Source: Bacteroidaceae bacterium (GTDB taxonomy: Bacteria > Bacteroidota > Bacteroidia > Bacteroidales > Bacteroidaceae). Taken from it: a stretch of 39,158 bases of DNA. Location of the stretch: the NCBI GenBank assembly GCA_017530735.1, contig JAFXMB010000049.1, positions 1 to 39,158 on the forward strand, read 5' to 3'. This document shows positions 19,224-37,289 of this stretch, piece by piece. Position 1 is the stretch's first letter, and each line of letters starts with the position of its first letter. The translations under genes and the position numbers were made by a program. The notes under the pieces are model-generated. The model saw only the letters and a list, made by a program, of their open reading frames with translations. It was not told the origin of the DNA and ran no database searches.

Positions 19224-19940
19224 TTATCCAAGGAATTTGCCTCGGTTCTGCAGGCCAAGCAATCCCGACATCAGGAAAATGATGGCCGCAACAGCCATTA
19301 TGATGCGGTTCTTGAGCAGAGTAAGGCTCCAGATTGCAGCGTTGATGTTCTCAGGCTCCTCATATGGATTGATGGTCACATCCCACATCTTGTTCTCAAC
19401 CAGCGGAATACTGCCCAGGATCATAGCCAGTATAACCGTGAGCACCGACATAACGGCAGCGGCGTTTCCGTTGCGGATCAGGGTTGAGTACAGGAATGCC
19501 AGGTTGCCGAACAGTGTGACCGGAAGCATAAGCTGTCCCGCCATGGAGAAAGGCTCCACAGGGAACAGCAGGATCCTGGCCAGGAAGGCGTAAACCACAA
19601 GAATCAGATATACCTCGACGTATATCATGACCAGGCGGAACAGCCATACCTTGTACATATAGTTCGGGATACCGAAAAGAAGTTCCAGAATGCGGTGATC
19701 GGCATCATTCTGAATGCCGAAGCATGACGGATAGAACACCAGAAGAAGGCCCGGTATGATAAGTTGGCTGTATACCATACCGTGACTCAGTGACGTACCA
19801 CGTGCTGCAGCGGTGTACATGAGGAAGAAGAACAGGACCAGGCCCACCAGCAGGAACCATATGAACTTGCCGGCAAAAATTATCCTCATATTGTAACCGC
19901 ACAACTTGGCGAATGATTTTGTTGTCTGTAATACTGACAT
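19224..19940 (-). CDS. ABC-2 type transporter permease (small, six-helix)
   Basis: A 238-residue membrane protein with about six transmembrane segments: helix around FIWFLLVGLVLFFFLMY, then paired helices, ending MAVAAIIFLMSGLLGLQNRGKFLG. The arrangement and the ABC-2-like segment GIQNDADHRILELLFGIPNYMYKVWL fit an ABC-2 export permease without its own ATPase domain. The neighbouring upstream gene, 12 bases away, ends in an ABC ATPase domain, so this is the likely permease partner of that domain. ABC-2 permeases move lipids, polysaccharides or drugs outward; the substrate is unknown. Confidence 0.8.
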   Translation of the reverse strand: MSVLQTTKSFAKLCGYNMRIIFAGKFIWFLLVGLVLFFFLMYTAAARGTSLSHGMVYSQLIIPGLLLVFYPSCFGIQNDADHRILELLFGIPNYMYKVWLFRLVMIYVEVYLILVVYAFLARILLFPVEPFSMAGQLMLPVTLFGNLAFLYSTLIRNGNAAAVMSVLTVILAMILGSIPLVENKMWDVTINPYEEPENINAAIWSLTLLKNRIIMAVAAIIFLMSGLLGLQNRGKFLG

Positions 19941-19952
19941 CGGTCTACTTCT

Positions 19953-22900
19953 TTAAAGGTTCTTCAATAGGCAAAGGTATGCATCCTCCAGATTGGGCTC
20001 AGCCAACTCGGCACCCGGCCACGGGCATGTGGGAGAGATATAACGTACCTTGATCATTCTGCCGTCCTGGATGTGGTTGGCAATGAGTTTTTCATCGAGT
20101 TCACCCAGACGTGAAGCCTCAATATCAAACAGCCATACCTTGTCCTTAGCCATCTTTACCATATCATTGGGCTCACCGAAGTACTTGAGAGAGCCCCTCT
20201 CTATAACCACAACCTGGTTACATGAACTTGCTATATCCTCAATGATATGGGTTGAGAATATCACGATACGGTCACGGCTAAGTTCAACCAGCAGGTTACG
20301 GAACCTGATACGCTCACGCGGGTCAAGACCTGCGGTAGGCTCATCGACCACAAGGATACGCGGCAGGTTAAGCAGTATAAGCGCAATACCTATACGCTGC
20401 TTCATACCGCCTGAGAACGATCCGATGGCCGAGTTGCGCTGCTCATACATATGAACTGATGTGAGCACGTACTCAAGTCTCTCGTTACGCACCTTCTCAT
20501 CGGTAATACCCTTAAGGATGGCCTGATAGTTCAGGAAATCCCATGCGCTCATGGACTCGTACATACCGAACTCCTGAGGCAGGAAACCAATCAGACTCTG
20601 CAGTTCCTCCCTGTACTTGAGGGTATCCATACCGTTTATGAACACGGTTCCGTAACTCTGACGCAGGATACCGGTCACGATACGCATGAACGTGGACTTA
20701 CCGGCACCGTTAGGTCCAAGAAGTCCGAACATACCGCTGTGGATCTCGAACGTAACGCCACGCAGGGCCTTGAACGGCTTCTTGCGCTTGCCGATGATGG
20801 GAATGCTCTTTACGAACAGGAACCATCCACGGCGGATACCTGCGGTCTCACCCTTCAGTCGCTCCACATTGATATTGTTCTCGTACAGATAGTCGGCAGT
20901 CTTGCTGATGCAGAGTCCCAGTATCCATACTACCACAATGAATACCATGAATCCCTTGCTCTCTATGCGTGAACTCAGGAATATCATGGCGCATACCGGA
21001 AGTGCCCAATAAAGGATCTTACGGATAATTGTCACTGCTCCGGCACCCTTCTTGAACTTGTATGCTATATACTCAAGAACAGCCTTGAGGATATTGTTGA
21101 CACCGGCCAGGGTAATGATGGTCATAAGCAGAATCCAGCCCTGCTTTTCAAAATACCATCCGGCCAGATAACATGTATATCCGAACACAACCACCTGCCA
21201 CAGAAGGCTTACAAAGTCTTTTGCATGATGGAATGTGCGTGCCAGTCCAAGACGGCGGCGAATATTCAGGCCGCTGCGCCACTGGCGCAGGAACAGGCTG
21301 TACCAGTCATAGACCTTAACCAGGTTGCGCACCTCAATTACAATCGGCTCGTCGGGTTTGACAATATCCTTGCGTGCAAACCTTACTGAACTCTTTATGA
21401 AGTACGTAATTCCCGGAACGGCAATTGCCAGCACGATAATGTAAATGAGTATGCGGAAAATGCCGTGTACGGTGGTAAAGATCACAATAAGGCCCACGCT
21501 GAACAGAACTGCGTGCAGAATATGGGTGTAACGGCCCAGTTTCCTGTACCATGCCCTCATGTTCTCAAACGATATGTAGAGCGTAGGTATGAGCAGCAGC
21601 GTAAGCACGGCCGAGAATGTCAGACCGCCTATCACAGTCAGCGCGAACGGAGCACCTATGGCACCTGCGTACTCATTGTCACCCATTGCCATCGGGATAA
21701 GCGTGACAATGGTGGTGATGGTAGTGATGCAGATAGGTCTCAGACGCGAATAACCGCTGTTCATGATTGCCCTCATACGGTTGTAGCCACGGCGGCGCAA
21801 CGTAGTTGAGTAGTCAATCAGAATGATTCCGTTGTTCACCACTATACCCAGCAGGATAAGGAATCCTGTCAGCGTATTGGCGTTCATCAGGCTGTTGCCC
21901 GACAGGAGCAGTGCCAGCAGCGATCCTATGGCAGCAAGCGGAATGGAGAACAACAGTACTATAGGCGTGGTCAGTGACTCAAAGGCCGATGCCAATATCA
22001 TGAATATGAGAATGATAGAGGCCAGAATCAGGAACTTGAACTCACTGGTTGAGTCATCACCGCGCTGAACCTCGAGTGCCAGTCCCGATGGCAGGTTGTA
22101 ATTGGCGATCAGGTCATCAATCTGGTCATGATAGCCGTCAAGCACATCCTTAGGCAGTTCCTCACTCTGTGAGATTGAATAGGTCACGTTCACGCGGCGG
22201 TCACGGTTCACACGACGTACCTCTGACGGTCCGCGGCTCAGACGGATATTGGCCAGCTGCTGCAGTTCATGGGTGCCGCCGTTTGCATCGGTCACGATTA
22301 CGCGGCGCAAATCATCCATGGTCTTCTCCCAGCGGCCCATCTCCTCCTCTTCCTCGGTCAGGTCATCCATTATGATAATGTCATACTCATCGGTACCCAC
22401 CTTGAAACTGGCTCCGGTACTGGTCGCACGGTTCAGGGAGTTCAGGGCCTGTGTTATGGCCGATGTGGATATGTTGTACGATGCCAGCGTGACAGGATCA
22501 AAGGTAAGCTGAACCTCACGGCGGCCGCCCGGGTTGTCAACCCTGACGTTACGTACAAACTCCAACTGCTCCAGATAGTATCTGAGGTTGTTTGAAACCA
22601 CACGCATGGTCTCTGTATCGGAACCCTTTACAACTATTCTCTCGGTATTGTCACCCATACCCAGCACGCTCATGAAACGGGTCAGGGAACTCAGGCCCGA
22701 TGCGCTCTGGTTGCCACGGGCATAACCGGGAGTGACACGGACGTCAATCTCATTCTCCAGGGCCAGGCTCTCAGAGAGTTCCTCAACAAGCTGGCTGATG
22801 GTAGGACCACCCTTCTTGTTGTATCCCTCCTGCAGAGTCACGGTGATTGATGCCTGATCCTCCTGGATACGGCTTATCACATCTTTCTTCTGAGGCAGAC

Positions 22901-24650
22901 TGTCCAGACGCTCCTCCAGCTTGGCGGTAGCCTCATCGGTATTCTCAATAGTGCTGCCGCTGGGCATGGTTATGTTCACGTTGATACGGTCACTGTCAAC
23001 CTGACGGTTCTGACCGGTATCGCGCGACAGGGCGAATATAAAGGCTATGACCAGAACTGCCACGGCTATGCCGATAGTCGGTCCGGGCTTTCTGAGACAG
23101 GTCTTGAGCAGAGTTGAATACATCTGCAGAGGACGGTCATGTATGGACATCTTCTTGAAGAAGACGCTGTTGCTGCCGCCTCCACGCTCCATCATTGCTG
23201 CCGTAGCCATAGGAATGAAGGTCACGGCTACCAGGAGCGAGAATATCAGGGTCGATATGATGGAGAAACCTATGTTCTTTCCCAGCAGCTTGATCATGGG
23301 CTCATCCGAGAACACAAACGGCAGGAACACCGTTATCGTGGTGAGCGTAGATGATATAAGGGCTTTACGCACCTCCTTGACGCCCTGAAGCGCAGCCAGA
23401 CGGGGCGGCATTCCCATTGATGCCAGTCGGTAGATATTCTCCAGCACAACGATACTGCTGTCCAGCAACATACCCACAGCCAGCGCCATACCTATAAGGG
23501 TAAGGGTGTTTATGGATATACCGGCTGCGTAGAACACGTTGAAGGCCGATAATATGGACACAGGTATTGACAGCGCGATAAAGAACACCAGGCTCAGGTT
23601 GCGCAGGAAGAACCACAGCACCAGAACAGCCAGCAGACCACCTATCAGAGCCAGTCTGACTATCTGTGATATGTTGTTGCTTATCTGGTCGGCCGAATTT
23701 GACTGAACCACAAGCTGCAGGTCCTGTGCGGCCACCTCCTTGTTTATCTCATCGATACGCTTCAGTGTACGGTTGGACAGGTTCAGAAGGTTCTCACCTG
23801 CTCCGTTCACCAGAGACACCGAGATGGCGTCCATTCCGTTCACACGGCTGATGGTTGTCTCCTCCCTGTAGTCAAAGAACACAGTGGCTACATTCTTCAG
23901 ATATACGGGGCCCGGTGCCACCACCAGATTCTCCACCTGCGACACGTCATCATAGTTGGCGTCAAGCTGAACATAATACTTGCGGTCAGGCTCGCTTATG
24001 AATCCCAGGAACGTACGCTCCTGGTTATACTGGTTCAGCGCCTGGCTTATCTGCGCATTGGATATTTTCAGTGCCTGCATTGCCTCGGGATTGGAACGTA
24101 TCTCGATTGACTTGACACGTCCGCCGTACACCGTCACGCCGGCTATTCCGTCTATACTCTCCAGGCGCGGCACCACATCCTTGTCCACGATGGCTCTCAG
24201 ACGGTCTACGCCACCCGATCCGCGCACCTGAAGTGACATGAACTGGTTGCTTATACCTGTCAGGTTGGCCTGTTGGACATTGACTGTGACATCGCTCGGA
24301 AAATCACCCCTTATGGAACTTATCTTCTCCTGCAGCTTCACGGTGGTCATCTTGAGGTTGGTTCCGCGTTTGAAATCAACCCTGATGGAACCCTGTCGGC
24401 CCGATGCCGTCGATTCCATGTTCTCCACACCGCCAACAGCGCTTATTGCTCCCTCGAGCGGAATCACCACCTGCTGCTCCATGTAAGCCGGAGTAAGGTC
24501 GCTTCTGGACGAGCAGGTTACGTATAACTGGGGCAGTTCCGTATTAGGCAGCAACTCAACAGGCAACTGCTTGTACGAGAAATAGCCCAGCAGCGTCATC
24601 GCCACCAGAAGCATGCAGATAGTTACTCTACGGTCAATAAATGACTTCAT
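19953..24650 (-). CDS. RND efflux pump fused to a split ABC transporter ATPase domain
   Basis: A 1565-residue single open frame. Residues 1-1030 are a full RND pump: TM1 (9-27), VELLPNTELP, TM2-6 (about 330-487) with proton-relay-type D397 in VGMLLDSSIVVLEN, TM7 (about 523-542), second porter region, and TM8-12 (about 871-1026) with GIVVNNGIILIDY. Two further helices follow (about 1042-1088). Residues 1102-1114, PIVIEVRNLVKVY, look like the first strand and A-loop of an ABC ATPase. A membrane-rich stretch (about 1145-1255) then intervenes, and the ATPase resumes with KALRGVTFEIHSG. The ATPase has Walker A GPNGAGKST (1312-1320), Q1359, signature FSGGM (1412-1416), Walker B ILVVDEP (1432-1438), GLD and H1468, all intact. 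The start overlaps the preceding RND gene by one base. Substrate unknown. Confidence 0.9.
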   Translation of the reverse strand: MKSFIDRRVTICMLLVAMTLLGYFSYKQLPVELLPNTELPQLYVTCSSRSDLTPAYMEQQVVIPLEGAISAVGGVENMESTASGRQGSIRVDFKRGTNLKMTTVKLQEKISSIRGDFPSDVTVNVQQANLTGISNQFMSLQVRGSGGVDRLRAIVDKDVVPRLESIDGIAGVTVYGGRVKSIEIRSNPEAMQALKISNAQISQALNQYNQERTFLGFISEPDRKYYVQLDANYDDVSQVENLVVAPGPVYLKNVATVFFDYREETTISRVNGMDAISVSLVNGAGENLLNLSNRTLKRIDEINKEVAAQDLQLVVQSNSADQISNNISQIVRLALIGGLLAVLVLWFFLRNLSLVFFIALSIPVSILSAFNVFYAAGISINTLTLIGMALAVGMLLDSSIVVLENIYRLASMGMPPRLAALQGVKEVRKALISSTLTTITVFLPFVFSDEPMIKLLGKNIGFSIISTLIFSLLVAVTFIPMATAAMMERGGGSNSVFFKKMSIHDRPLQMYSTLLKTCLRKPGPTIGIAVAVLVIAFIFALSRDTGQNRQVDSDRINVNITMPSGSTIENTDEATAKLEERLDSLPQKKDVISRIQEDQASITVTLQEGYNKKGGPTISQLVEELSESLALENEIDVRVTPGYARGNQSASGLSSLTRFMSVLGMGDNTERIVVKGSDTETMRVVSNNLRYYLEQLEFVRNVRVDNPGGRREVQLTFDPVTLASYNISTSAITQALNSLNRATSTGASFKVGTDEYDIIIMDDLTEEEEEMGRWEKTMDDLRRVIVTDANGGTHELQQLANIRLSRGPSEVRRVNRDRRVNVTYSISQSEELPKDVLDGYHDQIDDLIANYNLPSGLALEVQRGDDSTSEFKFLILASIILIFMILASAFESLTTPIVLLFSIPLAAIGSLLALLLSGNSLMNANTLTGFLILLGIVVNNGIILIDYSTTLRRRGYNRMRAIMNSGYSRLRPICITTITTIVTLIPMAMGDNEYAGAIGAPFALTVIGGLTFSAVLTLLLIPTLYISFENMRAWYRKLGRYTHILHAVLFSVGLIVIFTTVHGIFRILIYIIVLAIAVPGITYFIKSSVRFARKDIVKPDEPIVIEVRNLVKVYDWYSLFLRQWRSGLNIRRRLGLARTFHHAKDFVSLLWQVVVFGYTCYLAGWYFEKQGWILLMTIITLAGVNNILKAVLEYIAYKFKKGAGAVTIIRKILYWALPVCAMIFLSSRIESKGFMVFIVVVWILGLCISKTADYLYENNINVERLKGETAGIRRGWFLFVKSIPIIGKRKKPFKALRGVTFEIHSGMFGLLGPNGAGKSTFMRIVTGILRQSYGTVFINGMDTLKYREELQSLIGFLPQEFGMYESMSAWDFLNYQAILKGITDEKVRNERLEYVLTSVHMYEQRNSAIGSFSGGMKQRIGIALILLNLPRILVVDEPTAGLDPRERIRFRNLLVELSRDRIVIFSTHIIEDIASSCNQVVVIERGSLKYFGEPNDMVKMAKDKVWLFDIEASRLGELDEKLIANHIQDGRMIKVRYISPTCPWPGAELAEPNLEDAYLCLLKNL

Positions 24651-27600
24651 TACTTTCCAGTGATTCTTATTTTGGCGCTTTCAAATACATAATAAACACA
24701 CGGTATCACCACAAGACTCAGAAGAGTCGAGGTAACCAGACCGCCTATCACGGCAATGGCCATGGGCGAACTCAGGGATGCCCCCTCGCCTATTCCCAAA
24801 GCCATAGGCACAAGTGCCAGGATTGTGGTAAGACTGGTCATAAGGATAGGACGGATACGCTGCTGACCTGCCTCGGCTATGGCGTCGGTAAGGCTCAGAC
24901 CGGAATCCTTGAGCTGTCCTATGCGGTCCACAAGGATAATGGAGTTGTTGACCGCGATACCGGCCAGCATAACCATACCTATGATACCCATTATATTCAC
25001 GGTTATACCTGTAATCAGGAACATCAGTACAGCACCCACCAAAGCCAGAGGAATGGTGAGCAGGATGGTGAACGGATGCAACAGTGATTCAAACTGCGAT
25101 GCCATCACCATATAAACCAGTACTATTGACAGAACAAGTGCCAGAAGCAGGCTGTTCATTGACTCGGCACGACGCTCCTCCTCACCGGTCACGGTTATGG
25201 AGTAGTTCTGCGGCAGTTCAATGCCCGATACTGCTTCTCTGACACGCTGAGCGGCCTTGTCCAGTGATACCGACTCGTCAATCTCGGCAGTGACGCGTGT
25301 CACACGGTTCTGGTTCAGACGTGATATCTCCTTAGGTGCGGTGCTCTCACTGATCTGGGCAATCTCCACCAGACGGAAATCCTTCTGGCCCGATGTAATT
25401 ACCATATTGTTCAGATCGGACAGAGAAACGCCGGGAACCTTGATGCTGATATCTCTCATGTCACCCTTGTAGTCCATCTGACCGGCTTCACGTCCGGCAA
25501 GATGCTGCTGTATCTGGGTGATTATGGTAGATACGTTAATGTTGTTCATACCGGCCAGGGCACGGTCAACCGTGATGATGATCTCGGGTGCGCCGCCTGC
25601 CAGTGAACTCTCAACATTATAAAGGCAGTCAATAGAGTCAACCGCAGCCTTTACCTGTGATGTAAGAGCAGACAGAAGGTCCAGCTCCTCACCCTTTATC
25701 TCCACTACCAGAGGAGCATCCTCGGTACCCATCATCGAACTCAGGGAGTTGTCATCCTGAACGAACGAGATTTCCATACCCTCTACGCCCTCAATATAGG
25801 CTGCAAGAACCTCGGTAAGGTAATCGGGAGTAACGGCCGATGCCTTGGAAAGCTGTATCTTCATAGAAGCGGTGTTCTCACCCTCAAAGTCCATATTCTG
25901 AGCCGATGCACCCGGTCCCACATGTGTGTAGATTACAATATCGGGATCTTCAGTCAGGTCAAAAACCAGATTCTCAAGACTCTCAACTGTGGACGATGTA
26001 CGGTCCAGGCTGGTACCCTCGGCCATACGCACCTTCACGTTGATGGTACCCTCATCGGTCTTGGGCATAAACTCGGTACCTACATACGGCAGCAGGAACA
26101 CTGTTCCGGCAACCAGTACAACCGATGCGCAGATAACCCACCAACGTTTCTCTACAAGACGTTTCAGGAATGAGCTGTAACCCTTGATGTTCACTGAACT
26201 GAAACTCTTAAGTGGAACGGCTTTCTTACGTCCGAATATCTTGTCATAGAGTGTAGGTATCACAAGAATAGCCACCAGAAGTGAAGAAACCAGCGAGAAC
26301 GTTACCGTCCATGCCTCATCCTTGAACAGTTCACCGGTAGCACCGTGCAGATATACTATAGGCAGGAACACCACGATGGTGGTAAGGGTCGATGCCGATA
26401 CCGCGCCGGCCACCTCGGATGTACCGGTCACAGCGGCGTCACGCACCGAAAGGCCGCGTTCCTGGTTTCGGAATATACTCTCAATAACCACGATGGCGTT
26501 ATCCACCAGCATACCCGCACCCAGCGCAAGACCTCCCAGCGTCAGGATGTTTATGGTCAGTCCGCTGAAGAACATCAGGTTGAAGGTTGCTATAATGGAA
26601 ACCGGTATTGAAACGGCCACGATCAGAGTGGTACCCACCCTGCGCAGGAACACGAACAATACTATGACAGCCAGCAGCACACCCAGCAGGGCGCTGTTCT
26701 TTACCTCACCGATAGAGTTATTGATGAAGGTAGCCTGGTCGCTGATGATCTTGACCTCATAACCGGGCAAAGACTTCTGTATCTTGGCAAGGCTTGTCTT
26801 GACGCCCTCAACCGCCTTGACGGTATTGTAGTCCATCTCCTTGAATACGGAGATGCCGATGCTTCGCTTGCCGTTCACCCTTACGATATTCTCGGGCTCA
26901 CGGTTCTCAAAGTGAATGTCGGCCACGTCACGAAGGTAGATGGGTGCCATGCTGGCCGATTCAAACTCGCCTATTTGCCCCTGACTGGTCTCGGTATTGC
27001 GGTAACCCACGATGATATTGCCGAACGCAGACTCATCGGTCAGGGTATTGGAACCTGTTACCAGATACTGGAATCCCTGTTCCGATATTCTGCCGCCCGA
27101 TACCCTCTGGTTGCTCTCCTGGATACGTGACGATATGTTGTCGACAGTGACATTGAAAGCCTGGAGCTTGTAGGGATCGGCCTCGATGACCAGGTTGGTG
27201 AACTCGTCACCCGCCAGGGATACATCGGCCACACCCTCAACACGCATAAGTTCGTTGCTCACATATGAGTCAGCCACCTTACGCAGTTCGGCCATATCGG
27301 TTATGTCCGGGTTGGAGAAACCTATTATCATAATAGGTGCGGTAGTGGGGTCCTTCTGTGATATACGCAGGTCGGTCACACGGCTGTCCTGGCTGAAACT
27401 GCTCATGGCCTTCTCCAGATCCAGGAACGCCTCGTCCATATTCTTACGCCATGCGTACTCAACCGTGATGCGGGCAGTACCCACCTTTACGACCGATGAT
27501 ACCGAACGTACGTCACTCTGACGCGCAATCTGGGACTCCATGCTGCGCACGAACTGCTTCTCTATCTCTTCGGGCGGACGCTCGCCGGCATCGATTTCGA

Positions 27601-27742
27601 CAAACAGGCGGGGGCTGTTCATGCTTGGAAGCAGTTCCACGCTCAGCCTGTCATATGCTATTTTTCCGAGCAGCAGGATAGCCAGCACTCCCATGGTGAC
27701 AGTGACCGGATTCCTGACCGCCCAACTTACAAGTTTTTTCAT
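24650..27742 (-). CDS. RND efflux transporter permease (AcrB/MdtB-like)
   Basis: A 1030-residue proton-driven RND pump of the inner membrane, expected to form a trimer with the adaptor and TolC-type channel encoded just upstream. Seen: TM1 with NPVTVTMGVLAILLL and VELLPSMNSP; periplasmic porter domains; TM4 with D414 in GAGMLVDNAIVVIESI, the proton-relay Asp (one Asp where AcrB has two); second half with GTEFMPKTDEG, then ASQFESLLHPF and AGIAVNNSIILVDR in TM8-10. Sequence resembles the hydrophobe/drug (HAE) class more than heavy-metal CusA. The gap to the adaptor gene is 15 bases. It pairs with the fused RND next door, so a heteromeric pump (as in MdtBC) is possible. Confidence 0.93.
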   Translation of the reverse strand: MKKLVSWAVRNPVTVTMGVLAILLLGKIAYDRLSVELLPSMNSPRLFVEIDAGERPPEEIEKQFVRSMESQIARQSDVRSVSSVVKVGTARITVEYAWRKNMDEAFLDLEKAMSSFSQDSRVTDLRISQKDPTTAPIMIIGFSNPDITDMAELRKVADSYVSNELMRVEGVADVSLAGDEFTNLVIEADPYKLQAFNVTVDNISSRIQESNQRVSGGRISEQGFQYLVTGSNTLTDESAFGNIIVGYRNTETSQGQIGEFESASMAPIYLRDVADIHFENREPENIVRVNGKRSIGISVFKEMDYNTVKAVEGVKTSLAKIQKSLPGYEVKIISDQATFINNSIGEVKNSALLGVLLAVIVLFVFLRRVGTTLIVAVSIPVSIIATFNLMFFSGLTINILTLGGLALGAGMLVDNAIVVIESIFRNQERGLSVRDAAVTGTSEVAGAVSASTLTTIVVFLPIVYLHGATGELFKDEAWTVTFSLVSSLLVAILVIPTLYDKIFGRKKAVPLKSFSSVNIKGYSSFLKRLVEKRWWVICASVVLVAGTVFLLPYVGTEFMPKTDEGTINVKVRMAEGTSLDRTSSTVESLENLVFDLTEDPDIVIYTHVGPGASAQNMDFEGENTASMKIQLSKASAVTPDYLTEVLAAYIEGVEGMEISFVQDDNSLSSMMGTEDAPLVVEIKGEELDLLSALTSQVKAAVDSIDCLYNVESSLAGGAPEIIITVDRALAGMNNINVSTIITQIQQHLAGREAGQMDYKGDMRDISIKVPGVSLSDLNNMVITSGQKDFRLVEIAQISESTAPKEISRLNQNRVTRVTAEIDESVSLDKAAQRVREAVSGIELPQNYSITVTGEEERRAESMNSLLLALVLSIVLVYMVMASQFESLLHPFTILLTIPLALVGAVLMFLITGITVNIMGIIGMVMLAGIAVNNSIILVDRIGQLKDSGLSLTDAIAEAGQQRIRPILMTSLTTILALVPMALGIGEGASLSSPMAIAVIGGLVTSTLLSLVVIPCVYYVFESAKIRITGK

Positions 27743-27757: not shown

Positions 27758-28828
27758 TTATCTTTGGATCTTCACCTTTGAACCGTCTCTCAGGGTCTCA
27801 AAACCGCGGACAATCAGCTGATCGTCTCTTTCAAGACCGCCCAGCACCTCGACCATGTTCTTCTCTTCCAGACCAAGTCTTACCTGCTTTGCCCTGGCTA
27901 TACCCTGGTCAACCACAAATACGATACGTCTGTTACGCTCGGGGCGGACAATGTTCTTGGGAATGACGATGGTGGAACTGTGGCTCTCGGTAACGATATC
28001 GGCCTTTACGAACATACCCGGTCTGATGAGCAGGTCCTTATTGTTTATCATAAGTTTGCCCTTGAATGTACGGGTCTCGGCGCTGATGGCCGGAGAGAGT
28101 TCGGTGATCTCGCCCATGATGGTGTCCTTGGGGAGAGTATAATGGGTGATGTATGCTTTCTGGCCTACCTTAACTTCGGTGATGGCGCTCTCCGGGAGGT
28201 TGATCTCAAGCAGCATCTGGCTGTAATCCATGATGGTTACCACCGATGTTCCGCTGTTGACCTTTGCCTCCTCCGAGAAGTGAGGAAGGTTTACAATCAC
28301 ACCGTCAAACGGAGCGCGGATGTTCATCTTCTCCAGATTCATCTCGGCGTTCTCATAATCCAGACGTGAGTTCATGATCTTGACCTCCGAGTTCTTGACC
28401 TCGGTAAGAGTGGCACCACCCTTGTCGTAAAGAGACTTTGTCTTGACCTGCTCCTGCTCGGCAAGCTCCAGATTAAGACGTTTGGTTTCGATGGATATGC
28501 CGTTCTCGTAAGACTTATCCTCGATACGTACAATCAGGGCACCTTTCTTAACCTTGTCACCCAGTTTGTAAGGCTTGCCTGTAGCGGGATTCTTCTGCAG
28601 ATGGTACTTGCCGGCCATCTCGGTTGACAGTTCAGCCTCGGCACTTGATATAGCAGTGCTGTTGGTTGTGAATACCCTGCTGATAGAACCGTAGGTTATG
28701 TCCGATACGGATACCGGTGTGGGTATCTCGGCACGGTTCATTGTGTTCTCTTGTCTGCACCCTGCCATAAGGACTGTCAGGGCAGCCAGTGTAAGTACGC
28801 TGATTCCTTTTTTCATATGCTGTTTCAT
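27758..28828 (-). CDS. Periplasmic adaptor (membrane fusion) lipoprotein of RND efflux
   Basis: A 356-residue AcrA/HlyD-type adaptor linking the inner-membrane pump to the outer-membrane channel. Seen: signal with lipobox LMAGC (C24) anchoring it in the membrane; two lipoyl-half segments flanking a short helical hairpin (KGALIVRIEDKSYE and MNIRAPFDGVIVNLP), beta-barrel domain with VGQKAYITHY and RPGMFVKADIV, and a membrane-proximal domain ending RGFETLRDGSKVKI. The hairpin is short (about 60 residues). It starts five bases after the TolC-like gene's stop. ATG at 28816 is an alternative start. Confidence 0.92.
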   Translation of the reverse strand: MKQHMKKGISVLTLAALTVLMAGCRQENTMNRAEIPTPVSVSDITYGSISRVFTTNSTAISSAEAELSTEMAGKYHLQKNPATGKPYKLGDKVKKGALIVRIEDKSYENGISIETKRLNLELAEQEQVKTKSLYDKGGATLTEVKNSEVKIMNSRLDYENAEMNLEKMNIRAPFDGVIVNLPHFSEEAKVNSGTSVVTIMDYSQMLLEINLPESAITEVKVGQKAYITHYTLPKDTIMGEITELSPAISAETRTFKGKLMINNKDLLIRPGMFVKADIVTESHSSTIVIPKNIVRPERNRRIVFVVDQGIARAKQVRLGLEEKNMVEVLGGLERDDQLIVRGFETLRDGSKVKIQR

Positions 28829-28833
28829 TTTTA

Positions 28834-30339
28834 TTATTTCTTCTTTTTGTCTTTTGTCTCTTCATAGGTTATGGGAACCACAGGCTCATCCTTTTCAAAA
28901 TCGTAAAGGGTCAGGATCTTGATGTTCAGAAGCTGTACCTTATAGTTGATTATGGCCTGAGTATAAGACATCTTGCTGTTGGAAAGCTGTGTCTGGAACT
29001 GGTTCATCTGCATACCTGTCAGTTCACCGTTACGGTAACGCTCCTCGTTGAGGTCATAGGTCATCTGAGCGTTCTGCTGGCTCTGCTCGGCAATAGAAAT
29101 CTGCTGGAGCAGGTTATCCAGGCTGCGGCATGTGCTGCGCAGGTTTATCTCTATGCTCTTGATTTCCTCCTCTGCGCTGAGTTCAAACATCTGGCGCTCA
29201 ATCTGGGCGGCGCGGATACGTGCCTTACGGGCACCCCAGTCAAAGATAGGAACGCTGAACGATACTGACACACGCGGGTTATTGGTAGGATTATCGTAGA
29301 TATTGGGGAACTGGGGATCATCGCCCATGATACCTACCGACAGTGATACGTTACCGTTGAAACTGTCATTGTCCTTAACCTGGATCATCGACATCTCCTG
29401 CTGCTCACGTGATATCTGACGCTGACGGAGTTCAAGTCTGCTTGACATGGCGCTTTCAAGAGCCTTGTCAAAGTCCACCAGTACCGGCTCAGCCTCAATG
29501 TCACATACAACCCTGATATCCTCCTCAAGAGGTATGCCCAGGGCCTGCTTGAAATTGTCCTTGGAGTTCTCCAGGCTTACCCTCTGGTTCTCCAGGCTTG
29601 AACGAGACTGTGAAAGGTTCAGCTGGGCCTGATAGAACTCGTCCTTGGTAACCAGGTCGGCCTCAACCTTATCCTTGATGATATTGAAGTTCTTCTCGGC
29701 ATTCTCCAGTTCCTTCTCACTGATCTCAAGGTTCTGCTGGGCAGTGAACAGACTGTAGAACTGGCTTGTGATGTTACGCTCCACGTTAAGCATCTGCAGG
29801 GCATAACTGATACGTGCGTTCTCATAGTTCATCTCTATCTGACGCATGTTCATTTTGGTCCTGTTGTAAGTGAACAGGGGCTGGGTCAGACTCAGGTAAA
29901 GACTGTTACTGAATGCGCGGTTGCTGTTGGTGGTACCGCCTATGGTAGACTGGTTGTTCTGCCATGACAGACTGTTGTTCAGAGACAGCGTGGCATCAGT
30001 CCAGATGATGGGCTGCGATATGCTGAACGTACCCGACGATGACAGCGAACGGTTGGTGTACCAGTCAGAGAAACGGCTGTCAAACTGACGTGACTGCGAG
30101 TATGATACAGGAGTCAGATTAAGTGAGAACCTTGACTTGAGCGATGCCCTCTGTGCAATCAGGTTCTGCTCGTAACGTTCCATACTCATGCGGGAGTTAA
30201 TCAGATCCGGATTATGCTCTGCACTGTACTGCAGGGCCTCTTCCATGGTCATGACAATCTGCGCCTGGGCACCGGTTGAAAGAACCGATGTCACTGCAAG
30301 CGCAAGTACTGCCCCAATTACTGTTTTTCTTTTCTTCAT
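28834..30339 (-). CDS. TolC family outer-membrane efflux channel
   Basis: A 501-residue outer-membrane factor. Seen: signal peptide ending TGAQAQ; MTMEEALQYSAEHNPDL at the mature N-terminus, characteristic of the family; two long heptad-rich helical repeats with the second half beginning near QRQISREQQEMS and carrying FDWGARKARIRAAQ; and YRNGELTGMQMNQFQTQL near the end. TolC trimers form the trans-periplasmic tunnel used by RND and some ABC exporters. ATG at 30339 was preferred; an upstream in-frame TTG at 30363 would overlap the permease gene stop. It is the only outer-membrane channel in the operon, so both pump types may share it. Confidence 0.92.
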   Translation of the reverse strand: MKKRKTVIGAVLALAVTSVLSTGAQAQIVMTMEEALQYSAEHNPDLINSRMSMERYEQNLIAQRASLKSRFSLNLTPVSYSQSRQFDSRFSDWYTNRSLSSSGTFSISQPIIWTDATLSLNNSLSWQNNQSTIGGTTNSNRAFSNSLYLSLTQPLFTYNRTKMNMRQIEMNYENARISYALQMLNVERNITSQFYSLFTAQQNLEISEKELENAEKNFNIIKDKVEADLVTKDEFYQAQLNLSQSRSSLENQRVSLENSKDNFKQALGIPLEEDIRVVCDIEAEPVLVDFDKALESAMSSRLELRQRQISREQQEMSMIQVKDNDSFNGNVSLSVGIMGDDPQFPNIYDNPTNNPRVSVSFSVPIFDWGARKARIRAAQIERQMFELSAEEEIKSIEINLRSTCRSLDNLLQQISIAEQSQQNAQMTYDLNEERYRNGELTGMQMNQFQTQLSNSKMSYTQAIINYKVQLLNIKILTLYDFEKDEPVVPITYEETKDKKKK

Positions 30340-30359
30340 ATTATGTTGTTTTATCTTTT

Positions 30360-33300
30360 TCAATCCCTTACTCTCTTTACCAGTCTCACAGCATCTGCAA
30401 CGATAACACTCACGCCTGACCGGTTGTTGAGTGACACCTTCACGGTATCGGCCTCAAAGCGGAATGTTCCAAGCAGGTTCCAGCCCTCCTCGGCACGCAA
30501 CATGTTCAGTGACACGCGGTCCTGCATGTTGAACTGCTCAATCTCAAAGTTGTAGTCATTGGTTACCCTGCGGCCGTTGTTATTGTTGTAGTTATTGTTA
30601 TTGTTCCACCTGCGGTTTCGGTTATTGTTGTTGTACATGTCAGGTGACGTGTAGAAATAGACGTCATATACTCCGGCATCATCCAAAGGCACCTTCCAGC
30701 GGGCATACTGCGAGCCGTCACCCGGAGATATGATGTATGCCGAACGGATGTAGTCACCGTACAGGTTCTGCTCTGTCACCAGTGTCCACAGGGTGTAGGT
30801 ACGCCAGTCAGAGAAGCCCTCGTAGATGAACTCGTTCTTTTTTTCACGTGACTTGTCTATCCACTTGGAAAGGTAACCGGTACGTATGGGTTTGGAGAGT
30901 GAGAACAGTTCACTGTCCTCATTATCCACTATGATCTCACCCGGAAGAGTGTTGTCAACACCGCTGCGCAGCGTGTATATACCCTCGGGAGTAAGTTCAG
31001 TCCCGGTATAAATGCTGTAGTTGGAGTTGTCAAGCCTTACATTATGCGGCAGGTTTGACGATAGCATGGTATTTATGTTTATCATGCTCGGGGTGTTGAA
31101 CCAGTGAGTCACTATCTTGCGGGTCTCATGGGCATCCAGACTTATCATCATACGGGTGGGTTTATCCTCGTCGCCGGCATTCTCCTGTTCATAGAATACA
31201 AACTCTACTGACACATAACCCGGATAGTCCGATATGTTCTCAAAGGCTATCTCAGCCTGGTAGATATCGGCCGTATCGGTGGTTACGGTGGTCACCTGCG
31301 GATTGCCTATCTTGAAGCAGGCCAGACGTACGGGCTCGTCCCAGGCATCGATCTTTTCCTTCAGGCTCACTCCCGAGAATGTCTGCAGCCAATCCAAAAT
31401 GGAATCAAACGAAACGTTCGAGAACTCCTTCTCACGGGTTTTGGCAGTGATGGAGTCAATCATAGCCTCATAACCCATAACGGCCGATACGGGAGCAAAG
31501 AAATCCTGAGTCTTGAGTGCCAGGGCATTGTCGGCCAGGTCTTCCCATTCAGGATCGGACATGATACGGTTAAAGTCGTATTTGCCCATCAGTATCAGCG
31601 CCTTCTCATCTTCAGAGAGACCGTTCATTCTACGTATCCAATCTCCGTTTCCGTTGTTGGTGTTCGTGTTGGTCAGGGACTCCACCATACGCTTGGCCAT
31701 GGGCCAGGCAGACGAGTAGATGTTGTATCTGAAGTTGTAGAACAGAGGCCTGTAGTAATACGGGTTGTCCGTCTGCGTCATGGTAAACTGTCCGCCACGG
31801 CTGGAACCCGCGAAACTGCCCTGCTGCATCATGAAATAGATTGCCGTCTGGAAGACGCTTGAGAGTATCTCCTTTTCGGACATGTTGCTGTTAGCCATCC
31901 GGCGGTTCCGGTTATTTCCGTACATGCGCATCTGGTTATCAAACTGGAACGCACGCATGTCACAGCCTTTCTCATGTATCAGCGCCATCTCAGGCTGAAG
32001 TTGCTCGTAGGCCGATGTCCACACACGCTTGTATGATGTAAAGTTGACGGGAACCTCCACTAAAGAGAAACGCTTGAACGGATACTTCATATCGGCCTGG
32101 TACTCCATAGTCCTGAGTGTGCTGCGCACAAAGTTGGGCAGGGTGTCGCGTATGGAATCAAACACAGAGAACCTGTCATCCCACTCGCCTATCTCCCATA
32201 CGGTGTACAGAATAGAATCCACCATCATGGACTTGGGGGTATAATCACCTATAATAAGAGATACCGACGGAAGTGAAGATTCGGGTGTGAACGTGTAATT
32301 GGTAGAATCCGCATTTACCGAGCACATGCCCTGCGATATGGGTGTCAGTCCGGGATTGGGAGTGACATTGACATTGAAACCTGTAAAGTAGGACCTCTCC
32401 CACTCCGGGCTTTCGTTGCTGAAAGCCACACCGGGACGCGGGTACCAGTAACTCTCAGGGGTGAGCATCGTATAATCCCTGCTCTGGAACAGGTAACGCT
32501 TGGGAACGTTCAGCATGGAGAGCATTTTGGTATTCTCAACCATCTTCTCATCCGTTATGTCCAGATAGCAGATGCGTTCATCGGCCATACCTCCGTACTC
32601 GATTGTAAGATTTACAGGCTCGTCGGCAGTAAGAGTCTTGGCAAATGTGAGCACAAGCAGATGAATCAGGCGTTTGCTCTTTACTTCATGACCGGGAACT
32701 GTGACATTGCTGATACGGAATCCGGGGTTAAGGGTGAATACCAGTGTCTGCTGATCCTCCCTGGGTCTTACGGTCATATCGGCCGTAACCCTGATAGAAT
32801 CACCTTCCTGGGTCACTGTCAGATTGCACACATCGGCCACCGAACCGCCCTGATTGACATACCTGTTGTCAAGTTCAACCATATCGGCCCTGAACTTCTC
32901 ATCTATCTTGTACACTTTTACGTGCCAGTATCCCGAGAACAGGCCGGCTATCAGGAACAGTCCTGCGGCGATACGCCAGGGCAGAAGGCTGTATCTGGAA
33001 TTTGCCAGACGGTGGAACAGTGAGATATCTGTAAGAATCAGGCCTATACCCAGCAGCAGATAGCACAGACGGTGGTTGATCAGTCGGGAAAGTCCGCTGA
33101 AACCGGTCACTGTTGATTTGAGCATGGGCAGGTTGAAACCTATGTAGTCAAACAGATAATAGTACAGGTCATCAATGTAGAAAAGCGTTACGCCGATATA
33201 TGCCAACAGGATCACCATGGTGATAGCCTGGTTGTTGAGTATCAGCATCAGTGTGGTTGAAAGACCTACTATGAATACCAGTGTCGGTACCGACAGCAGC

Positions 33301-33746
33301 AGGAAATACCATATATAACTCAGGTAATCCAGATCTACACCGTATTTGATAAGGCTCATTATGAGCGCAATACCTGCAACCACCAGGTCAAGCATGAAGA
33401 ACACCTTGAGAGTGGCCCACATCTTGCCCAGCAGATACTCCGCATTACTCAGCGGACGGGTATAGAACACCTCCGACGTGTCAAGCTGTTTGTCACGCTT
33501 CAGATACTCCGATGCAAGGAATACCGATACTACGGCCTGTCCCACATTCATTACCAGCATGAATAGATAAGGGATTACAGACCTGTTCACCATCTCGGGC
33601 TGCTGAAAGGGCTGGAGGATATAAATAGATCCCAGAATCACTGCGGCCAATATTGACAGAACCGCAAAAACCTTGAAGAACCAGCCTCGTACAAGCAGTT
33701 TAGTCTCGTACTTTGAAACTATGCGTATGTTAGTTATTCCCAGCAT
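30360..33746 (-). CDS. ABC-2 permease fused to an inactive M1-peptidase-like domain and golvesin-like C-terminus
   Basis: A 1128-residue protein. Residues 1-275 hold about seven transmembrane helices of an ABC-2-type permease. Residues about 295-800 form an extracytoplasmic part like family M1 aminopeptidases fused to ABC permeases in Bacteroidetes: a beta domain (VTADMTVRPREDQQTLVF), then FSLVEVPVNFTSYKR. No HExxH zinc motif occurs anywhere; the nearest, HEKGC at 591-595, lacks the second His. Residues about 980-1124 match the golvesin C-terminal-like domain (ARWKVPLDDAGVYDVYFY, WNLLGTFRFEA, VIVADAVRLV), interrupted by an Asn-rich loop (1039-1060). The start ATG overlaps the ATPase stop by one base, so the two are coupled. 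Function of the outer domains is unknown, possibly binding or sensing. Confidence 0.82.
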   Translation of the reverse strand: MLGITNIRIVSKYETKLLVRGWFFKVFAVLSILAAVILGSIYILQPFQQPEMVNRSVIPYLFMLVMNVGQAVVSVFLASEYLKRDKQLDTSEVFYTRPLSNAEYLLGKMWATLKVFFMLDLVVAGIALIMSLIKYGVDLDYLSYIWYFLLLSVPTLVFIVGLSTTLMLILNNQAITMVILLAYIGVTLFYIDDLYYYLFDYIGFNLPMLKSTVTGFSGLSRLINHRLCYLLLGIGLILTDISLFHRLANSRYSLLPWRIAAGLFLIAGLFSGYWHVKVYKIDEKFRADMVELDNRYVNQGGSVADVCNLTVTQEGDSIRVTADMTVRPREDQQTLVFTLNPGFRISNVTVPGHEVKSKRLIHLLVLTFAKTLTADEPVNLTIEYGGMADERICYLDITDEKMVENTKMLSMLNVPKRYLFQSRDYTMLTPESYWYPRPGVAFSNESPEWERSYFTGFNVNVTPNPGLTPISQGMCSVNADSTNYTFTPESSLPSVSLIIGDYTPKSMMVDSILYTVWEIGEWDDRFSVFDSIRDTLPNFVRSTLRTMEYQADMKYPFKRFSLVEVPVNFTSYKRVWTSAYEQLQPEMALIHEKGCDMRAFQFDNQMRMYGNNRNRRMANSNMSEKEILSSVFQTAIYFMMQQGSFAGSSRGGQFTMTQTDNPYYYRPLFYNFRYNIYSSAWPMAKRMVESLTNTNTNNGNGDWIRRMNGLSEDEKALILMGKYDFNRIMSDPEWEDLADNALALKTQDFFAPVSAVMGYEAMIDSITAKTREKEFSNVSFDSILDWLQTFSGVSLKEKIDAWDEPVRLACFKIGNPQVTTVTTDTADIYQAEIAFENISDYPGYVSVEFVFYEQENAGDEDKPTRMMISLDAHETRKIVTHWFNTPSMININTMLSSNLPHNVRLDNSNYSIYTGTELTPEGIYTLRSGVDNTLPGEIIVDNEDSELFSLSKPIRTGYLSKWIDKSREKKNEFIYEGFSDWRTYTLWTLVTEQNLYGDYIRSAYIISPGDGSQYARWKVPLDDAGVYDVYFYTSPDMYNNNNRNRRWNNNNNYNNNNGRRVTNDYNFEIEQFNMQDRVSLNMLRAEEGWNLLGTFRFEADTVKVSLNNRSGVSVIVADAVRLVKRVRD

Positions 33747-34627
33747 CAATCCTTATCCTTAATCTCAGTAAAATAAACATATGCATGCTCCAGATTTGGA
33801 GGATAGTTCACTGCACCGTATCCGGGGTTCTCCTTTGACACAACCTGCAGATCCCATCCCAGGCCATGCGGAATTGTCGATATCACGGCATACTTCTGAT
33901 TGATCTCAGCATACTGCTCATTGGTAACCTGGAGACGCCATACTTTACCCTCTGTCTCGCTGAGCATACCTGCGGGCGAACCGCGGAACATGACCTGGCC
34001 CTGGTTGAGCATGGCCATCTCGGTACATGAACTTGATATGTCACCTACAATATGGGTTGACAGGATGATTGTGGTATCCTTTGAACTGGCTTCGCTCAAC
34101 AGGTTACGGAACCTGATACGCTCCTCAGGGTCAAGACCTGTGGTAGGCTCATCCACAACCAGGACCTTGGGCTTGTGAATAAGAGCCTGGGCAATACCCA
34201 GACGTCTCTTCATACCACCCGACAGATTCTGAGCGTATCGGTCACGGGCCTCATAGAGACCCACCTGCTCCAGCATCTCGTCAACAGCCCTTCCGCGCTG
34301 GGAGGCATTTGTCATACCCGTAAGCGCAGCTGCATACTCCAGAAACTCACGAACCTTGTACTTGGCAAAGAACCTGAAATCCTGAGGCAGATAACCCAGA
34401 ATGCGGCGCACCTCCTTGCGTTGTGTGCGAATATCATAGCCGCATACGTCTATCTGACCCTCGGTAGGTTCCATCAGTGTTACCAGGATACGCATCAGCG
34501 TGGACTTTCCGGCGCCGTTAGGCCCCAGAAGTCCAAACATCCCTGATGGTATCTCAAGGTTGATATCGGTCAGCGCTCTCTTCCCGTTGGGATAGTAGTG
34601 GCTTAACCCTTTAATACTTATCGACAT
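33746..34627 (-). CDS. ABC transporter ATP-binding protein (ABC-2 type)
   Basis: A 293-residue cytoplasmic ATPase, partner of the ABC-2 permease whose start overlaps its stop by one base. Seen: Walker A GPNGAGKST (35-43), Q-loop Q82, signature NLSGGM (134-139), Walker B VLVVDEP (155-161), D-loop GLD, H-loop H192, and a C-terminal extension ending in a LEHAYVYF motif. It closely resembles the ATPase end of the RND-ABC fusion (shared FGLLGPNGAGKST, LPQ-F, IRFRNLL and STHI, and a similar tail). The start lies 31 bases after the GH9 gene with no promoter box in that gap. Confidence 0.95.
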   Translation of the reverse strand: MSISIKGLSHYYPNGKRALTDINLEIPSGMFGLLGPNGAGKSTLMRILVTLMEPTEGQIDVCGYDIRTQRKEVRRILGYLPQDFRFFAKYKVREFLEYAAALTGMTNASQRGRAVDEMLEQVGLYEARDRYAQNLSGGMKRRLGIAQALIHKPKVLVVDEPTTGLDPEERIRFRNLLSEASSKDTTIILSTHIVGDISSSCTEMAMLNQGQVMFRGSPAGMLSETEGKVWRLQVTNEQYAEINQKYAVISTIPHGLGWDLQVVSKENPGYGAVNYPPNLEHAYVYFTEIKDKD

Positions 34628-34658: not shown

Positions 34659-37289
34659 TTACTTTTTGTTTAACGCTGCGGCAATCTCCTCGGCACCGAT
34701 TGAAAGGGTCACGTATGACGGTACGGTACGGGTGCAGCACTCATTCTCACCCCACAGGAACGGGTAATCGTCCTTGTGCTCAAGCAGGTCAGGCTGCAGG
34801 AGTACCAGTCCGGGTGCCACGCCGCCGGGTATGAATGTGTAATCCGCACGGTTGTTTCCGTATGCGACCTTCTTGGTGTTTACGCCTACAGCGGTCACGA
34901 ACGATACATTAGAGTACGGATGGTTGCCGTATATAAAATTAAGGCCTGACAGTACCAGCTCGGGATCAATCAGATCCGGATAGTAACGCCATACCATATA
35001 ATTATTCTGAGCCCAACTGATCACACGCTCGCTTCCGCCCCATGTGCCGCCTGCTACGGGAACACCGTAAGGAGTGGATTCGGCTGTACGCTTGGCATCC
35101 TCAACGAATACTGGGATAACCTCACGGAGGCTGGCCTTGAAGTCATCATCCATATAAGGAAGCAGCGAGAGTGCAGTTGTAATGTTCACACGGGGAGCAC
35201 GCATTGCGCTGCCGCCGCCGGTGCGGTTGTCTTCAACGCCCTGGGGAGCATTCTTGGCTGCCTCTATCTGTCTCATCACCATAGGCAGGAACATCTCCTT
35301 GTACTTGTCATCACCGGTAAGGAGCCACAACTGGATGGCTGCAGCGGAACGGTCTCCGCCAAAGCCACGGCCGCCGCGCTGCTGGTTGGCCTGCTGCTGT
35401 TGCGGACGGTTGCCCTGACGTGCCTGGAACTCATCCATCTCCTTCCACAGCTTGAGGGCGTTCTTTTTGCAACGTTCCGCAGTTTCGGGAATGTAGGGAG
35501 CAAGTACGCGGGCGGCATGTGCCAGAGCGGCGCATACATTTGAGTTACCCATGGGATTTCCGCCGTTGTTGGTGAATGCAAAACGGTCATCGAGTGTACC
35601 TGAACGGTTTCCGCGAACCTCATAAGGTTTGAGGCTGGGATCATATATGTAACCGTCAGTGATGGTTACGGCATCACCCAGATGGTGATACTGGTGCATG
35701 GTTCCCTGAACTATACCGCCGGCTATGAATCCTATGTTCTCAATCTGGGCGCAAAGGTTCAGAGCGCCGTGTTCAACCTGCTGGATAACATCGGGCAGAC
35801 CGTCCGGGCGGTGTATGTCAACGAACTGGGTCTTCTGGTCAATGAATGTCTGGTCACGCTCGGGACGCAGCACATCCCACATTTCAGCCAACTGGTTGGT
35901 CAGACCCACAACGGTACCTGACTGGATGTCAAAATCACCGGCGTCATACCATGCGCCTACTGCCAGGCCGGGTATGTGCTCGTAGGGTTTGTATTTTGTA
36001 TTTGTGGTGTTACCCATGCGGTAACCGTCCTGCTGCTGATAGTTGGTGGGAGCCTGAACGGCGTCATCCATATGGGAACGGCCATGCCATACGCGGTATG
36101 CCTCGTTGACCATCATATGATCCATCTGAACGGGCAGCCACACATCCATTGTGTTGTACCACTTGCCGTCATATACGTTCACATTGATGGGGAACGGATT
36201 TGTCTTGACGCCCTTGTACTCTATGTAATATGTACCGGGCTCGCGTACGTCACTGAAATCACACTGGGCGTAGTTGTATCGGTCATAGAACACACCCCAC
36301 TCCTTCACTGCGGGAGTAAGCGCCAGAGTGTGGCTGCCGTCGGCATTTACACGCCATATCTTGGCTTTGGCTGCAACCTTGTCGTTGCGGTCCAGTTCAA
36401 TGACTGCCACCTTCTTCTGGGCGGGAGTATAACCTATCTGTGAGAATCCTACGTTGGGCTCACGTATCCACTCTGCATTGGGAGTAGGCTCAACCAGCCA
36501 TTCCAGCACCTTTCCGGTCTTACCTCCGGGCAGATAGGAACGTACCACGAACGTTCCGTTCTGAGAAAGGTCACGTCCGTCAAACAGATTGATTTCAGCC
36601 TCGGAACTGAATGCCACGCGCAGAGCCTCGTCCTCGGGAGCCAGAACCAGGTTATGACCCTTTGAAATGGGTTTGGGAACGATGAACTCGTCACGTCCGC
36701 GGTCATCGAAAGTGGAGAGTCCGTAGAACTGGGTTATTTTCTCCGAGTTGGGACGCATCTCGGTATCGCTTGACGGATAGCGCGGGAAAATCTCCGACTG
36801 GCCGTCCATCAGATAAGTCTTGCCGAAATAGGTTGCGGGGAAGAACTCCATGTTCAGTCCGGCCTTACCCACAAGATTCCCGGGAACAGGATTGTCCAGT
36901 TCAACCCACATGCGGAATCCGGTACCCTCCTCCTTTACCTTGAGGTCATACTCGAATTCATAGTCCTGATACTTGAAATGGCAGCTGATAACACCGCCAA
37001 GCGTATCAATGGTACGCTCCGTGAGCGTGGAATAGATATCCCACTGCTCAGGGGTGTTCATCAGACGAACGCCACCGCCGGTGGCAATACGTACACCGCG
37101 CTGGATAAGTTCCACGCCGGCTGTCTTCTCGTCACAGAAAACGCCCTGATAACGGTTGGAGTAAACCAGAACGTTGACACCTTGGGTTTCAAAATAGCCC
37201 CTTTCGTTGATCTCGAGCTTCCCGGGCTCCGTCCTGGAACAGGAAGCAAATGCACATAATGTGGCAATAATCGGCAGTATTCGTCTCAT
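34659..37289 (-). CDS. Glycoside hydrolase family 9 (endoglucanase-type) lipoprotein
   Basis: An 876-residue secreted glycan hydrolase. Seen: signal with cysteine C17 in FASC, a likely lipobox, so it is probably surface- or membrane-anchored; an unassigned beta-rich N-terminal part (about 25-275); a cellulase-N-type Ig-like domain starting FSQIGYTPAQKKVAVIE (282-298); and the alpha/alpha-barrel catalytic domain with nucleophilic-water Asp in WYDAGDFD (D449, D452) and the general acid in GENE (E848/E850). HPYSNVSFVTAVG is the third GH9 signature. A Gln/Gly-rich loop at 624-646 is unusual. GH9 enzymes cut beta-1,4-glucans; the exact substrate is not evident. It heads the ABC/RND gene series, only 31 bases upstream. 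Confidence 0.88.
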   Translation of the reverse strand: MRRILPIIATLCAFASCSRTEPGKLEINERGYFETQGVNVLVYSNRYQGVFCDEKTAGVELIQRGVRIATGGGVRLMNTPEQWDIYSTLTERTIDTLGGVISCHFKYQDYEFEYDLKVKEEGTGFRMWVELDNPVPGNLVGKAGLNMEFFPATYFGKTYLMDGQSEIFPRYPSSDTEMRPNSEKITQFYGLSTFDDRGRDEFIVPKPISKGHNLVLAPEDEALRVAFSSEAEINLFDGRDLSQNGTFVVRSYLPGGKTGKVLEWLVEPTPNAEWIREPNVGFSQIGYTPAQKKVAVIELDRNDKVAAKAKIWRVNADGSHTLALTPAVKEWGVFYDRYNYAQCDFSDVREPGTYYIEYKGVKTNPFPINVNVYDGKWYNTMDVWLPVQMDHMMVNEAYRVWHGRSHMDDAVQAPTNYQQQDGYRMGNTTNTKYKPYEHIPGLAVGAWYDAGDFDIQSGTVVGLTNQLAEMWDVLRPERDQTFIDQKTQFVDIHRPDGLPDVIQQVEHGALNLCAQIENIGFIAGGIVQGTMHQYHHLGDAVTITDGYIYDPSLKPYEVRGNRSGTLDDRFAFTNNGGNPMGNSNVCAALAHAARVLAPYIPETAERCKKNALKLWKEMDEFQARQGNRPQQQQANQQRGGRGFGGDRSAAAIQLWLLTGDDKYKEMFLPMVMRQIEAAKNAPQGVEDNRTGGGSAMRAPRVNITTALSLLPYMDDDFKASLREVIPVFVEDAKRTAESTPYGVPVAGGTWGGSERVISWAQNNYMVWRYYPDLIDPELVLSGLNFIYGNHPYSNVSFVTAVGVNTKKVAYGNNRADYTFIPGGVAPGLVLLQPDLLEHKDDYPFLWGENECCTRTVPSYVTLSIGAEEIAAALNKK

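Follow-up and report, generated by a model that had tools for sequence, protein, structure and literature searches.

A conserved, probable RND-ABC-2 hybrid exporter subunit whose ABC ATPase domain appears to be split by a membrane insert

RND pumps are taken to be driven by protons and ABC exporters by ATP, and a single export machine may combine both. Among the described systems closest to the locus reported here, the HAE-1 pumps MdtABC and MuxABC are encoded by operons that contain two adjacent RND genes and an adaptor gene, and we know of no ATPase and no permease partner in either. MacB carries an ATPase and a membrane part in one chain and has an adaptor and a TolC partner, GldA is a free-standing protein, and the pairing of DrrABC with MmpL7 involves, to our knowledge, neither an adaptor nor an OMF. 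According to one report on that pairing, DrrABC is a group V exporter, MmpL7 is an RND protein in which the canonical proton relay is missing, and both are needed for lipid export; its authors think it likely that the RND protein acts as a scaffold with the ABC exporter, for which they see no direct evidence yet (PMC11539658). Two further papers describe MdtB2C as a mixed RND trimer (PMC12802153) and place the ATPase of MacB N-terminal of its permease domain (PMC8277102). Descriptions of an RND-ABC fusion were absent from the matches listed for the open-access literature, in titles and the beginnings of abstracts, subscription papers and preprints lying outside that search.

The window, that is, the whole stretch of 39,158 nucleotides analyzed here from a Bacteroidaceae bacterium (contig JAFXMB010000049.1), encodes a conserved RND-ABC-2 hybrid exporter subunit, P0001 (Table 1). 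Each part of the fusion belongs to a known family. A preliminary description of the DNA had reported one frame of 1565 codons at 19953..24650; these coordinates were correct, and the strand, which had not been named, is minus, the same frame of the plus strand over 19953-24650 containing many stops.

Table 1. Positions of the fusion gene, its parts, and the other genes of the operon in the window
Feature	Positions	Strand	Details
P0001, RND-ABC fusion gene	19953..24650	minus	single open frame, 1565 aa
P0001 residues 1-1030, RND permease part	21561..24650	minus	ACR_tran 2-1028; 12 hydrophobic segments (hydropathy)
P0001 residues 1040-1088, extra transmembrane hairpin after RND part	21387..21533	minus	hydropathy; model helices
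P0001 residues 1102-1115, putative ABC ATPase first strand and A-loop	21306..21347	minus	Y1114 invariant
P0001 residues 1116-1289, membrane insert between ATPase strands 1 and 2	20784..21305	minus	about 174 residues; four hydrophobic segments
P0001 residues 1290-1565, remaining ABC ATPase and C-terminal part	19956..20783	minus	catalytic motifs intact
P0003, small permease	19224..19940	minus	238 aa; NosY/ABCG-like predicted fold (type V, ABC-2 class)
P0002, second RND permease	24650..27742	minus	1030 aa; Pfam
P0004, periplasmic adaptor (MFP)	27758..28828	minus	TIGR01730 above cut-off
P0005, outer membrane TolC-type factor	28834..30363	minus	OEP
P0009, ABC-2 type permease region, degenerate M1-peptidase-like part, golvesin C-terminal domain	30360..33749	minus	
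P0010, free ABC ATPase	33746..34627	minus	42% identical to fused ATPase

A Pfam search found both ACR_tran (residues 2-1028, 553 bits) and ABC_tran (residues 1296-1440, 88.1 bits) in the one frame, and the full ACR_tran match together with 12 transmembrane segments identified the first part as an RND permease of the HAE-1 class. Hydropathy revealed two further segments, 1044-1062 and 1067-1085. Within the insert, 1173-1191, 1206-1224, and 1234-1252 exceeded a threshold of 1.55, and lowering it to 1.2 added a fourth segment, 1146-1164; residues 1030-1217 alone gave no Pfam match up to an E value of 10. Pfam and hydropathy bore out the 12 RND helices, two extra helices, and hydrophobic insert that had been proposed. 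The residues that we take to be the Walker A lysine (K1318), the Q-loop (Q1359), the signature (S1413-G1415), Walker B with its glutamate (D1436 and E1437), the D-loop (D1443), the H-loop (H1468), and the A-loop (Y1114) were invariant in all 41 aligned fusion proteins, i.e., the window's protein and those of 40 loci, of which 38 are distinct (L029/L138 and L060/L108 being the same places, so that two loci duplicate another). The ATPase motif set of P0001 was complete, in agreement with the earlier statement that every catalytic motif is intact.

The same description had proposed a nucleotide-binding domain split by membrane segments, with an early strand, PIVIEVRNLVKVY, at residues 1102-1114. 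Mean column conservation was 0.73 across the early strand and A-loop tyrosine and 0.42 across the membrane insert. In 39 of 40 fusion proteins, the segment at residues 1102-1115 was the best match to a first-strand profile of 14 free ATPases of the operon, namely P0010 and those from 13 loci with upstream DNA; four more of these 17 loci did not pass the sequence filter. An AlphaFold model of residues 1030-1565, made from a 38-sequence alignment (mean pLDDT, 83.7; pTM, 0.70), showed a pair of helices (1040-1060 and 1064-1088), a strand (1105-1114), four long insert helices (1143-1166, 1170-1198, 1200-1228, and 1232-1257), and a following strand (1293-1303). Model residue 72-75 (residue 1101-1104 of the protein) aligned with chain residue 1-2 of several solved free ABC ATPases, and in the predicted model P0001 had the ABC fold including strand 1, with residues 1102-1114 placed within the ATPase fold. 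When the ATPase model was submitted to Foldseek, ABC ATPases ranked first; TM-scores over the whole model were only 0.3 to 0.4 because the membrane part finds no counterpart. Conservation, strand profile, and model alignment support the view that the early strand belongs to the ABC ATPase, whose domain the membrane insert would split. The profile score of the window's protein alone was not significant against shuffles, as might be expected if residues 1102-1115 were an unrelated or leftover strand rather than strand 1 of the fused ATPase; nevertheless, the first rank in nearly all homologues, the invariant A-loop tyrosine, and the structural alignment make such a strand very improbable. In the model, the nucleotide site of P0001 is bracketed by membrane segments.

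The insert varied among homologues. Counted from 1115 to 1282, its length was 155 to 217 aa in all but two of the 40 homologues. The exceptions, L128 and L129, have 101 aa, and in them the search alignment stopped at approximately 1131-1142 and restarted at approximately 1209-1212; the remaining stretch held two hydrophobic segments in L128 and one in L129. These two are natural short-insert fusions, apparently without one of the two inserted hairpins, and L127 and L130 have long additions of low complexity that separate the A-loop from the first inserted helix. By a crude count at hydropathy threshold 1.2, the segments in 1031-1100 and in 1116-1289 numbered 2+4 in 26 of the 41 proteins, 2+3 in 11, 2+2 in 2, 1+4 in 1, and 2+1 in 1, i.e., 15 proteins did not have the 2+4 pattern; the window's protein had four insert helices in the AlphaFold model. 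An even number of helices in the insert would leave the ATPase cytoplasmic. The findings suggest that an ABC ATPase tolerates membrane insertion between strands 1 and 2 over much of the phylum.

The window's genome is a draft (161 contigs, 83% complete), in which an assembly artefact, a frameshift, or chance joining of separate genes might mimic a fusion. Such an origin has a negligible probability, however, since the fusion occurred in 19 further genomes of the same genus (although contig edges truncate it in G009), in metagenome-assembled genomes that carry different isolate names, and across 24 family labels of the order sample; this recurrence in independent assemblies, among homologues 42 to 98% identical, ruled out an assembly artefact or frameshift, and with it the join of separate genes that the preliminary description had considered. 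Its search for homologues was likewise answered by full-length relatives with the same architecture. Within the genus, the fusion was found in 20 of 25 genomes, the window's own included, and the others were 85 to 98% identical to the window's; the distribution was patchy, with the fusion not found in G001, G002, G013, G023, and G024, some of which are incomplete. None of the five genomes from other genera of the family (g18 to g20) had it.

A total of 54 of 393 genomes in the order sample, including the window's own, matched P0001 at an E value of ≤1e-125. Nearly the whole query lay in one frame of 1560 to 1602 aa in 40 of them, four more were fusions whose insert was short or long (frame lengths, 1515, 1536, 1627, and 1640 aa), and 10 were partial. 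Among the partial genomes, the frames of G302 (contig 7257) and G284 (contig 7954) ran off the contig, that of G038 reached the end of its locus, and most others (G211 aside) began a few bases from a contig end. In the phylum sample, 10 of 395 genomes matched at the same threshold: six with the fusion (the window's own, G129, and, outside the order, G480, G574, G532, and G759) and four with unfused RNDs of 29 to 31% identity. A contig scan, whose genomes overlapped with the same-genus set, yielded 32 loci. Two (Sporosarcina and Pseudoflavonifractor) matched only in the ATPase; the other 30, which contained all or part of the protein, came from metagenome-assembled genomes with sources that included rumen, other ruminants, and horses. 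In searches with the membrane module (A4, residues 1030-1292), 52 of the 384 genomes in the order sample and 7 of the 385 in the phylum sample matched, the two samples having some genomes in common. Except for G484 (E value, 5.9e-5; three stops), which was judged spurious, every match lay in a frame of at least 1515 aa or in a 504- to 1334-aa frame of a partial genome. The module was not seen apart from the fusion in these 384 order and 385 phylum genomes, nor were split-gene versions seen in searches with the whole protein and with the module. The module had no matches among 72,556 plasmid records, and none among 149 genomes of the phylum of locus L069, where the lack of a positive control means that the result shows little.

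The fusion RND parts formed one clade (SH-aLRT, 100), as did the neighboring RNDs, in a midpoint-rooted tree whose root does not tell whether the two groups are sisters. Five locus pairs recurred in both the fusion-RND and the neighbor-RND trees, and one pairing differed. A single origin with joint inheritance of the fusion and the neighboring RND is the simplest reading of these sequences.

The seven-gene cluster is a conserved operon, transcribed in the order free ATPase (P0010), large permease (P0009), OMF (P0005), adaptor (P0004), second RND (P0002), P0001, and small permease (P0003). In the window, adjacent genes overlapped by 1 to 4 bases or sat 5 to 15 bases apart. A different, P0002-type RND gene directly before the fusion and a small permease gene after it, on the same strand, were present in all 40 loci; the median gap was 9 bases on the RND side and 9.5 on the permease side (extremes, 927 and 878, respectively). 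The full run from large to small permease lay on one strand in 36 of 40 loci, the other four loci being short, and the free ATPase preceded the large permease in 17 of 17 loci with upstream DNA; genes beyond the operon varied from locus to locus.

P0003 has a NosY/ABCG-type permease fold by predicted model, and with the gene for such a fold adjoining the ATPase gene, P0003 and the fused ATPase would be classed as type V; Pfam support for P0003 was weak, and a PDB profile search with its family returned only two chance matches (E values, 0.22 and 0.53). The fused ATPase probably has P0003 as its partner. Profile comparison did not support homology between the two permease families. The three-part makeup of P0009, with an ABC-2 permease region, an M1-like part without the usual HExxH, and a golvesin domain, was conserved in the operon; an active M1 peptidase was rejected, HExxH being present in only 1 of 19. 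In the ATPase tree, the fused and free ATPases grouped against six other ATPases of the same genome (99/95), which were motif-filtered from 11 stretches and have long branches and a placement flagged as unsure, and the free ATPases by themselves were not a supported clade.

The best reading is a tripartite pump with two RNDs to which a module for ABC-2 export is tethered. With a probability of about 0.55, P0001 would be one subunit of a trans-envelope exporter acting as RND pump and ABC exporter together and handing its substrate to an RND/OMF conduit, as suggested by gene content and predicted structure. The operon's pairs of ATPases, ABC-2 type permeases, and RNDs fit a single ABC exporter of the heterodimeric kind joined to an RND heterotrimer, although homodimers may form instead. 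The fused ATPase would pair with P0003, and P0010 and P0009 would perhaps supply the second half-transporter and so complete a heterodimeric ABC-2 exporter; the RND proteins of P0001 and P0002 could form a heterotrimer like MdtB2C. The insert would fix the position of the ATPase beside the RND helices. ATP hydrolysis would move a substrate, possibly lipid- or peptide-like, from the inner leaflet or the cytoplasm directly to the RND porter domains, and the substrate would then leave the cell through the RND/adaptor/OMF conduit. Of the two functional guesses in the preliminary description, permease tethering is the better supported because a NosY-like permease gene comes after the fusion in every one of the loci; the other, by which ATP would drive or gate the RND cycle, is the less probable.

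Beyond the pair of RND genes and the adaptor gene shared with MdtABC and MuxABC, the window's operon also has an OMF gene; furthermore, one of its RNDs carries an ABC ATPase, and ABC-2 type genes are added. By sequence, the best PDB relative of P0001 was MdtB. MacB, whose adaptor and TolC partner have counterparts in the window's operon, differs in having no RND part, and NosF, of the NosFY and ABCG-type exporters, is a free ATPase, whereas the fused ATPase sits in an RND pump and is split by membrane helices. DrrABC with MmpL7 is the closest published idea to the fusion, since there too an RND protein and an ABC exporter of type V work together (PMC11539658); in contrast to P0001, those are separate polypeptides, and the RND is of the MmpL family. 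By analogy, the fusion would be a covalent form of that proposed action in trans and a fixed-stoichiometry version of the ABC-RND partnership proposed for mycobacterial lipid export. Among NCBIfam ABC models, GldA (TIGR03522) ranked first for the fused ATPase at 173.8 bits, far below its cut-off of 402.6, and drrA (TIGR01188) ranked second at 166.1 bits, below its cut-off of 312.45.

A purely structural role for the tether, serving co-assembly and fixed stoichiometry only, with the RND pump and ABC-2 exporter mechanically uncoupled and handling different or successive substrates, would suit the observations that both halves of P0001 look complete alone and that the operon parts suffice for two systems. 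Occasional split versions might then be expected, but none were seen in the order and phylum genomes searched, and strand 1 preceded the membrane insert in all 41 aligned proteins, so that we consider this role unlikely.

The converse possibility is that the fused ATPase itself drives or gates the RND cycle, the inserted helices moving the RND transmembrane part and replacing or assisting the proton relay. The membrane helices after the RND part anchor the ATPase on both sides of strand 1, and MmpL7, which is said to act together with an ABC exporter, is likewise reported to have no canonical relay (PMC11539658). The relay residues themselves also bear on this possibility. Equivalent positions were assigned from AcrB D407, D408, and K940, the canonical proton relay, which is not preserved in the fusion RND parts. 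The D407 equivalent, D397, was kept in 40 of 40, whereas neither D408 nor K940 was retained in any: the D408 position held N in 30, T in 5, S in 4, and C in 1, and the K940 position held N in all 40. In all 38 neighboring unfused RNDs, the D408 position was likewise N, and the K940 position was N in 36 and S in 2; the D-N/N-N variant also occurred in 5 of 12 other unfused RNDs (a 13th frame, which was spurious, was left out). Relay replacement cannot signal ATP drive because unfused RNDs, neighboring and other, have it too; relay loss as a hallmark of the fusion was rejected on the same grounds, and the variant may be an alternative proton relay. With, in addition, a NosY-like permease next door in all loci as an ordinary partner for the ATPase, direct drive of the RND cycle by the fused ATPase is doubtful. 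The broader proposal of a trans-envelope exporter energized twice in one polypeptide, its split ATPase mechanically coupled to the RND cycle and ATP hydrolysis driving or gating it, is a tentative one to which we give slightly more credence while still thinking it improbable. If ATP hydrolysis did drive the RND cycle, P0001 would represent a new class of exporter. A conserved covalent hybrid in one operon is a natural system for testing RND/ABC energy coupling directly.

Several minor observations were made. The P0001 and P0002-type RNDs both lacked the D-D/K pattern, having D-N or D-S, and N-N. Two genes after the operon, P0006 and P0007 (18027-19204, minus strand), had no Pfam family at an E value of 0.001; P0006 may, as a guess from its sequence, be an outer membrane barrel. 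Directly upstream of the operon, 34659-37289 (minus strand) encodes a glycosyl hydrolase family 9 protein with a CelD_N domain, and 844-3000 (plus strand) encodes a ClpA-type AAA+ protein (AAA_2, AAA_lid_9, and ClpB_D2-small).
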